Source: a virus | Length of the DNA: 23,907 nt | Virus record (IMG/VR): IMGVR_UViG_3300047483_000344 | Location: 1 to 23,907 of that record | Reading direction: 5' to 3' (one strand) | Shown here: positions 1,530-2,628 of the stretch, in pieces | Layout: each line of letters starts with the position of its first letter | How positions within the stretch are numbered: the first letter of the stretch is position 1 | The notes under the pieces: model-generated | Told to the model about the DNA's origin: nothing | The model's database searches: none | The model's input: only the letters and a program-made list of their open reading frames with translations | Program-made: the position numbers and the translations under genes

Positions 1530-2356
1530 TTCGTTACCTTTCCAAAAATTAGCTCATAACCTGCGTCGTAAATCTCGGTTTCATCCTCTCTTGCGGCTGC
1601 TAGTGGGGCAAAGTCTTTGACTCGCTCAATCGCTTTCCGCCGGTCTCTTTCCCTAAAGCTCTCTATCACTGCGCCCGATTGACCGGCTTTATTTTCTAGC
1701 CATTCCGCTTTGAATCCAACCCAGTTACGCAAACAACACTCTTTTAGTGCGTCCTCTATTGAATATCCAGCCTTTTGCGCTTGGCTGACGATCAGCTCCC
1801 AAGCTGTCTCGGTAACTGTTGGTGCGCCTTTTTTCTTCCTAACGGTAATCCAATCATTCCAAACTCTTTCGGAAACAAAATCAGGGCGCGTGATAATCAC
1901 GCTTTCCTTTTCCTTTCCCTTCCTATTCCCTTCCTTTCCTTTCCCTTCCCCTTGCTCTTGCACAAGAGGCGTGCCTGACGCGTGCCCCACGCGTGCCCCA
2001 CGCGTGCAAGGTGTTGATTCTTCAAGGCTTGGTATGGTTGATTCTGTTTCCCTGTTGTTAACTACTTGATGTCGGCTCCATGACGGTATACACCCAAATT
2101 CTTCGCCATCAAATTCATATTTGACAATAAAACCATTCAAAACCAACGCATCAAGCACGTGTGAAAAATCAATGTTGTCGTATGGGAGCACGTCCAGTTT
2201 TAGCGATCTGGGCTTCCACTTAAATCGTCCTTCTCTGTCGCACGCAGTAAAAAGCCCCACAAAAGCAAGGCGCAAAGGCAATTTTGTCTTTTGCTCGGCC
2301 TCAAATAAAGCCTCATGCCGAAAAAGCTCCGGCTTAACGGTTCTAATTCTTGCCAT
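1526..2356 (-). CDS. O-like phage replication initiator with winged-helix N-terminus
   Basis: 276-residue protein. The start MARIRTVKPELFRHE and the following 90 residues match the widespread phage replication protein group with an N-terminal winged helix-turn-helix. Residues 116-152 are a low-complexity Gly/Lys/Glu linker encoded by the iteron/purine tract described separately. The C-terminal part (about 155-276) resembles the partner-binding domain of O/DnaD-like replisome organisers, with W-rich motifs (VWNDWITVRKKK, NWVGFKAEWL). It would bind the origin and hand over to the P-like protein, which overlaps its stop by four bases. The start is supported by GGAG seven bases upstream of the ATG. 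Confidence 0.8.
   Translation of the reverse strand: MARIRTVKPELFRHEALFEAEQKTKLPLRLAFVGLFTACDREGRFKWKPRSLKLDVLPYDNIDFSHVLDALVLNGFIVKYEFDGEEFGCIPSWSRHQVVNNRETESTIPSLEESTPCTRGARVGHASGTPLVQEQGEGKGKEGNRKGKEKESVIITRPDFVSERVWNDWITVRKKKGAPTVTETAWELIVSQAQKAGYSIEDALKECCLRNWVGFKAEWLENKAGQSGAVIESFRERDRRKAIERVKDFAPLAAAREDETEIYDAGYELIFGKVTK
1902..2010 (-). other. Candidate phage replication origin inside the O-like gene
   Basis: Four tandem 11-bp repeats lie at 1967-2010. In the gene's direction they read GCACGCGTGGG-like units with a palindromic ACGCGT core; the inner copies are exact or nearly so and the outermost (1967-1977) is degenerate. Immediately downstream, 1902-1953 is a 52-base tract that is all purine on the coding strand except one base. 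Iterons followed by a strand-asymmetric tract within the initiator gene's linker region is the layout of lambda ori. The arrangement is seen directly; origin function is inferred. Confidence 0.55.
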
Positions 2357-2413
2357 AAGTCTTCTCCAGCATCAATGCATCCAAATCTTGTTTTGTTATG
2401 GTTGATAAAATGT

Positions 2414-2422
2414 CTGATAAAC
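2414..2422 (-). promoter_or_regulatory. Possible antisense target of the leader RNA
   Basis: The minus-strand RNA reads GUUUAUCAG here. It can pair over nine contiguous positions (one G-U) with CUGAUAAGC at 2528-2536 in the structured leader RNA just upstream. It lies between the leader terminator and the O-like gene start, where a C4-type antisense RNA would act. Nine bases is suggestive only. Confidence 0.25.
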
Positions 2423-2467
2423 ATTCATAGTCAAAGCTAGGCTCATGACTTCCTAACTAGCCGGCTC

Positions 2468-2516
2468 AAAAAAAAAACCCACACAAGCCAAGAGGACGAG
2501 TCCTGACAAGTATGGG
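2468..2516 (-). terminator. Rho-independent terminator upstream of the O-like gene
   Basis: Minus-strand stem CCCAUAC/GUGUGGG (2510-2516 with 2478-2484, one G-U) encloses a smaller AGGA-CUCG-UCCU hairpin and is followed at once by ten U residues. It would stop leftward transcription before the O-like gene, so replication gene expression must depend on read-through, antitermination or a refolding of the leader RNA. Confidence 0.65.
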
Positions 2517-2575
2517 TAGGCCTTGCGGCTTATCAGTAAATGCGTCTCGTCCACGCAACTCATAAACCGCCCGAA
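2468..2575 (-). ncRNA. Structured leader RNA with terminator/anti-terminator conformers (C4-like candidate)
   Basis: One fold is a three-way junction: closing GAGU (2558-2561) with ACUC (2498-2501); hairpin UGCGU/ACGCA (2553-2557 with 2541-2545) with loop GGACGAG; and an 8-bp stem CUGAUAAG (2529-2536) with CUUGUCAG (2503-2510). The competing fold is an intrinsic terminator: CCCAUAC (2510-2516) with GUGUGGG (2478-2484) around an AGGA/UCCU hairpin, then ten U (2468-2477). The loop GGACGAG is also complementary to CUCGUCC (2494-2500). It lies between the HTH gene and O. Size, terminator and phage-immunity position recall C4 antisense RNA; that identification is unproven. A 36-codon frame (2563 to about 2453) also crosses it. 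Confidence 0.5.
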
Positions 2576-2585
2576 TTTTGATTAT

Positions 2586-2628
2586 AAAGGCAATGAAAAC
2601 TTGTAAGCAGGGCTTACACGTTGCCTTT
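2586..2628 (-). terminator. Nested hairpin directly after the HTH gene (tR1-like position)
   Basis: An exact 7-bp inverted repeat TGTAAGC/GCTTACA (2602-2608 with 2612-2618) sits inside an outer AAAGGCAA/TTGCCTTT repeat (2586-2593 with 2621-2628), starting five bases beyond the HTH gene stop. In the leftward direction the inner hairpin is followed by AGTTTT. The U-run is poor, so it may be a weak or factor-dependent terminator or an mRNA end-protecting hairpin. Confidence 0.4.

Follow-up and report, generated by a model that had tools for sequence, protein, structure and literature searches.

A putative kissing-loop terminator leader upstream of a phage replication initiation gene

Fold of the leader RNA

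What RNA is made between the regulatory gene and the replication gene of this virus, and what might it control? The source is a 23.9-kb IMG/VR virus record, represented by one contig and analysed over its full 23,907 nucleotides (hereafter the window). Its minus strand carries, in order, an HTH gene (2953-2633), the leader interval and an O-like replication initiation gene (2356-1526; PHROG 16167, E 2e-44), with NinB and RusA-like genes further on. The Cro/CII-like assignment of the HTH gene comes from a weak match to phrog_409 (E 0.005); the gene resembles the HTH gene of locus L082, with which it has the stretch NGV-HKWR...FG..F in common, and its protein, used as a search query, reached no relatives of the locus. 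Upstream of the leader, TATAAT (2581-2586, minus strand) probably represents the -10 box of the RNA, and the -35 position of this promoter is covered by a 17-bp dyad, TGTAAGC-CCT-GCTTACA (2602-2618), with perfect 7-bp arms, which is possibly an operator of the HTH protein.

The RNA (2468-2576, minus strand) is predicted to form two hairpins of similar length, H1 (2525-2570) and H2 (2477-2517), the second of which, followed by a U10 tract (2468-2477), is an intrinsic terminator. The minimum free energy of the minus strand over 2580-2460 is -46.8 kcal/mol (z -4.27; equalled by 0 of 200 shuffles), whereas the plus strand of the same interval folds poorly (z -1.08), and the RNA is therefore taken to run leftward. 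The energy of the window RNA was matched by none of 3000 dinucleotide shuffles. In the MFE fold the 7-mers GGACGAG (2552-2546) and CUCGUCC (2500-2494), which are exactly complementary, are precisely the two hairpin loops; loop-loop complementarity of 4 nt arose in 48 of 3000 dinucleotide shuffles, of 5 nt in one, and of 6-7 nt in none. Besides this pair of loops, the sequence-only reading had listed an 8-bp stem containing one G-U pair between 2529-2536 (CUGAUAAG) and 2503-2510 (CUUGUCAG), and a 7-bp terminator pairing between 2510-2516 and 2478-2484 ahead of U10 at 2477-2468, and all of these can be read on the minus strand. Judged by predicted folds and shuffles, the hairpins, the terminator and the loop complementarity are real.

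Neither GGACGAG nor CUCGUCC has a second occurrence anywhere in the window, and no internal antisense target is therefore seen. The window RNA matched no Rfam family at gathering or permissive thresholds, and blastn of the leader interval against phage records returned nothing useful.

Relatives and covariation of the loop pairs

Six loci came from a first pattern scan of IMG/VR (GGACGAG and CTCGTCC separated by 35-60 bases and followed by a T-run), and a looser GGACGAG/CTCGTCC scan gave many more. When a covariance model built from the window sequence alone was run on the six loci, it accepted three (L227, 53 bits, E 1e-12; L226, 48 bits; L229, 20 bits, E 0.001). In these three most stem bases are replaced and pairing is retained, and L226 and L227 also have the three-base bulge. 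Altogether the pattern scans yielded about 25 relatives, in which the stems are rebuilt and the loop pairs covary, so that the covariation by which the sequence-only reading proposed to judge the structure is present across homologues. The H1 closing pairs 1-5 are standard pairs in all 19 curated members, with 3-5 pair types at each. In the common architecture, which the window has as well, a hairpin with a 7-nt loop comes first; the terminator hairpin behind it carries the exact complement in its own 7-nt loop, and the distance from loop to loop is 46-67 nt.

Frequencies were counted for seeded loop pairs only, with the family loops GGACGAG and GGUCAAG as search seeds. With GGACGAG/CTCGTCC and a T-run, both loops were closed by stems in 17 of 96 site pairs, compared with a mean of 0.03 and a maximum of 1 in 32 shifted registers; an overlapping count that dropped the T-run and used a slightly different rule gave 13 of 97 against 0-1 in controls. 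The scan seeded with GGTCAAG/CTTGACC, also with a T-run required, found both loops closed in 10 of 116 pairs, versus 0 in all shifted registers.

The loop pair itself also varies with complementarity kept, as do the stems with pairing kept: GGACGAG/CUCGUCC, GGUCAAG/CUUGACC and GUCGCUU/AAGCGAC all occur in the family. The latter two are found at the same place in L208 and L183, respectively, both of which had been fetched for an unrelated reason. Apart from this, hairpin 1 of L208 closely resembles the window RNA (CGGUUUA...UUGCGUGG.C.AGACGCA...AAGCCG), and two loop positions have therefore changed together with their partners. Loop-loop complementarity is the conserved heart of this leader family. 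When 1.77 Mb of loci that had been collected without regard to their loops were scanned, only the window and L183 were convincing, and 6-nt loops were little above controls. Complementary loops of 6-8 nt before a T-run, sought de novo, numbered 4 against 0-2 in controls and 10 for identical loops, barely above background, and such a scan therefore cannot by itself enlarge the family.

The members also have a common genetic context. TAnnTTTG, the Bacteroidota-type -7 box, is present no more than 45 nt from the first loop in 15 of 26 members (background 1.8%). Sigma-70-like boxes (TATAAT or TATAGT) occur in the window, L208, L254 and L290, the TATAGT of L208 at the position matching the TATAAT of the window. 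In most members a gene on the same strand starts shortly past the terminator, and the window likewise has a promoter box just upstream and a gene start shortly downstream, its O start being 112 nt past the U-tract, a longer distance than in most of the family. Among the members tested, most have downstream either a replication initiator or helicase loader (L310, L183, L363, L382, L387, L426) or an HNH endonuclease (L208, L242, L412, L291, L283); other downstream genes encode a TSCPD protein in L226, a PAPS reductase in L361 and, by inspection, a methyltransferase-like protein in L229. The original view that the HTH gene and O are separated by a structured leader containing an intrinsic terminator stands, and relatives of this leader do precede replication initiators. 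These RNAs were not found in named phages, no Rfam family matched the loci tested, and searches by sequence or architecture in an incompletely covered literature, one of them confined to the int-alpA-like hairpin, gave no description of the family.

The adjoining int-alpA-like leader

Immediately past U10 the window carries the 5' half of a second leader (2436-2463, minus strand; covariance model R1, 25.9 bits, E 3.6e-8), consisting of the P1 5' strand CGGC, UA, and the P2 hairpin GUUAGG-AAGUCAUGAG-CCUAGC. This segment exactly matches GGCTAGNNAGGAAGTCATGAGCC of 30 other contigs. The GAAAA junction, P3 and the P1 3' strand are missing from it and are replaced by the tail of an HNH gene (2340-2438, minus strand), a remnant of the last ~31 codons recognised by tblastn with the L082 protein (2432-2340; 64.5% over 31 amino acids, E 9e-9). 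The same HNH gene follows a complete leader in L082, L088, L133, L161, L189, L208 and L212. In L082 the order is HTH gene, complete leader, HNH gene and O; in L208 it is kissing-loop RNA, HNH homing endonuclease, complete leader, HNH gene and O. Since the window retains half a leader and an HNH tail where these orders are intact, its arrangement between the kissing-loop RNA and O, seen in one contig, is best read as a deletion scar, although it could also stem from an assembly fault. Because the int-alpA-like leader and the HNH gene have been cut down to this scar, O is now downstream in the window, and its position there may be a by-product of the deletion.

Two further observations concern the placing of these elements. 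At 2605-2646 on the minus strand, directly past the HTH stop codon, the sequence GCGAAAAGGC...GCCCUGC weakly resembles the 3' half of the int-alpA-like leader (covariance model, 11.3 bits, E 0.035); it may be what remains of a further copy, or the resemblance may be due to chance. In L183 (minus strand, ~1080-1230) a AAGUCAUGAG hairpin lies directly past TATAAT and directly before the kissing-loop RNA GUCGCUU/AAGCGAC, an order opposite to that in the window; the kissing-loop RNA there precedes an O-like replication gene.

The three-way-junction leader with the AAGUCAUGAG loop is complete in 75 of 101 distinct hairpin occurrences (score at least 24; 0.4% in shuffled controls). In a sequence-based alignment its cells are 100% paired and its covariation score is 0.449, against 0.102 when shuffled. 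At first it had no Rfam match and was considered a wholly new family, a view abandoned when RF02996 (int-alpA) was found in IME207, pIS4-A and KpV2811 at 42.6 bits. Relative to the RF02996 cut-off of 35.8 bits, L040 scores above (47.5) and L103 (33.5), L031 (31.5) and L105 (27.8) below; the model gave no score with L153, L219, L220, L135, L162 and L224, which have other backgrounds. No score was obtained for the Gram-positive-type members tested. Since RF02996 matches some members and L103 falls just below the cut-off, the leader is treated as a divergent extension of int-alpA and not as a new family. On this sequence evidence int-alpA has a large, largely unrecognised divergent subclass with the P2 loop AAGUCAUGAG, which is seen in the window at 2436-2463, in L031 and in L082-L224, and stands before homing endonuclease, DUF1376-like and O genes.

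The P3 loop of this leader is complementary to two separate downstream stretches, the best helix averaging 6.46 against 2.49 in shuffles and the second-best 4.77 against 0.86; in the loci read, the distal partner shares bases with the ribosome-binding site of the gene that follows. These pairings suggest a leader that acts on translation and contains a decoy, in contrast to the sRNA class under which Rfam lists int-alpA. The RNA is present and unannotated in the records read of IME207, pIS4-A, pYD38-A and KpV2811 and relatives, before an HNH or terminase gene, and the P3 loop CUCAUCA of this group matches UGAUG and the SD-containing UGAUGAGG. A AGGAAGUCAUGAGCCU hairpin also lies within another, longer conserved-looking RNA in L123 (4588), L140 (~2041-2056) and L142 (4180), which have in common ...GUGCC.GAACAACCUG...AAAACAGGUAA...; this RNA had no Rfam match in L123 and L140.

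Possible functions and known systems

The reading that we consider moderately probable is that the leader is a promoter-proximal attenuator belonging to an undescribed phage RNA family, in which the terminator loop would kiss the loop of the preceding H1. Transcription would start at ~2575 and H1 would fold first; its loop would pair with the terminator loop as the latter emerges, and the loop-loop contact would set the balance between termination at 2468, releasing an RNA of ~107 nt, and read-through into the next gene. Contact between the two loops in the cell, and an effect of it on termination, which may be to help or to hinder, are inferred. If this is true, attenuation before replication and homing-endonuclease genes would be achieved by a compact element that needs no protein. 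For phage annotation, two leader types would become searchable, the kissing-loop terminator and the widened int-alpA group, and a single compensatory-mutation experiment could test how phage replication initiators are controlled.

In a further, rather speculative version, the terminated leader would pair in trans with nascent copies of itself. The result would be a self-antisense control of copy number before a replication initiator, a device shared by phages of several bacterial groups and reused before homing endonucleases. The number of phage genomes would then be reported back to the termination decision. On about the same tentative footing is the proposal that this is an independent small RNA, made from a promoter of its own and ended by its own terminator, in which the loops protect the RNA, let it dimerise or let it act in trans, and that O is transcribed otherwise. 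The compact unit of -10 box, ~107 nt and strong terminator is consistent with such an RNA, as is an antiterminated state that is very unfavourable, but most members lie shortly before a same-strand gene start, and the window offers no trans target of the loop.

It is somewhat less likely that the RNA is a decaying leftover of a homing-endonuclease cassette, whose only present role would be to end transcription between the HTH gene and O. The adjoining leader is indeed halved and fused to an HNH gene tail, and in L208 an HNH endonuclease gene is headed by the same RNA; against decay, the neighbours are broken but both hairpins and U10 are preserved, and the loops are still exact complements.

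The attenuator-like part of the original interpretation is retained, whereas its two more specific proposals are not. A bistable switch, in which the stem 2529-2536/2503-2510 acts as antiterminator against the terminator, is very improbable. The 8-bp stem has a p of 0.013 in the window, and a 6-bp counterpart in L208 reaches 0.06. However, the supposedly exclusive fold has -26.4 kcal/mol compared with -45.6, H1 is already closed, holding the needed strand, before the partner strand of the alternative stem is made, and p is below 0.05 in 1 of 26 members, the window itself. The gap of ~19 kcal/mol between the folds and the lack of conservation of the alternative stem in other members leave the switch unsupported. 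Still more doubtful is a C4-type antisense RNA: mutually complementary loops in a phage regulatory region recall one, but the Rfam C4 model is unmatched even at E 5 and the window has no complementary target elsewhere. A 36-codon gene (2453-2563, MSCVDETHLL...), whose open frame spans the RNA, can practically be set aside, since tblastn found no relatives in phages and the relatives of the RNA retain its structure while nearly all stem bases change.

Several known systems resemble parts of this design. In lambda, the tR1/OOP region, which lies between a gene of the Cro/CII type and O, has a terminator and a small RNA. OOP runs against O, whereas the window RNA runs with O and its opposite strand folds poorly. 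C4 antisense RNA (RF01695) is likewise a phage RNA near a regulatory region, and its model is without a match in the window RNA. Int-alpA (RF02996) occurs in the same phage leaders, and the window keeps a divergent 5' half of it directly past the terminator, but int-alpA is a three-way junction, unlike a hairpin with a kissing-loop terminator, and its covariance model did not match the leader RNA at 2468-2576.

The pT181 attenuator, in the repC leader, controls the replication initiator of its plasmid and, like the window RNA, precedes such a gene. It consists of a 5' untranslated region RNA with an intrinsic terminator and kissing hairpins (PMC4878617), and is the nearest working analogue. 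The loop partner in pT181 is supplied by a separate antisense RNA, whereas in the window one RNA carries both loops, the second of them on the terminator; moreover, the pT181 antiterminator competes with the terminator, while a conserved antiterminator was not found among the 26 members of the window family. The fhsA motif, a riboswitch candidate whose terminator stem-loop could pair with the preceding hairpin, is similar in this pairing of the terminator loop, as compared by description only (PMC11109978). It precedes bacterial formate-tetrahydrofolate ligase genes, unlike the window family. The same design recurs in about two dozen other phages with changed but still matching sequences, and therefore looks like an undescribed family; as far as the tools used here show, the kissing-loop terminator leader would be a new RNA family of a known general kind.
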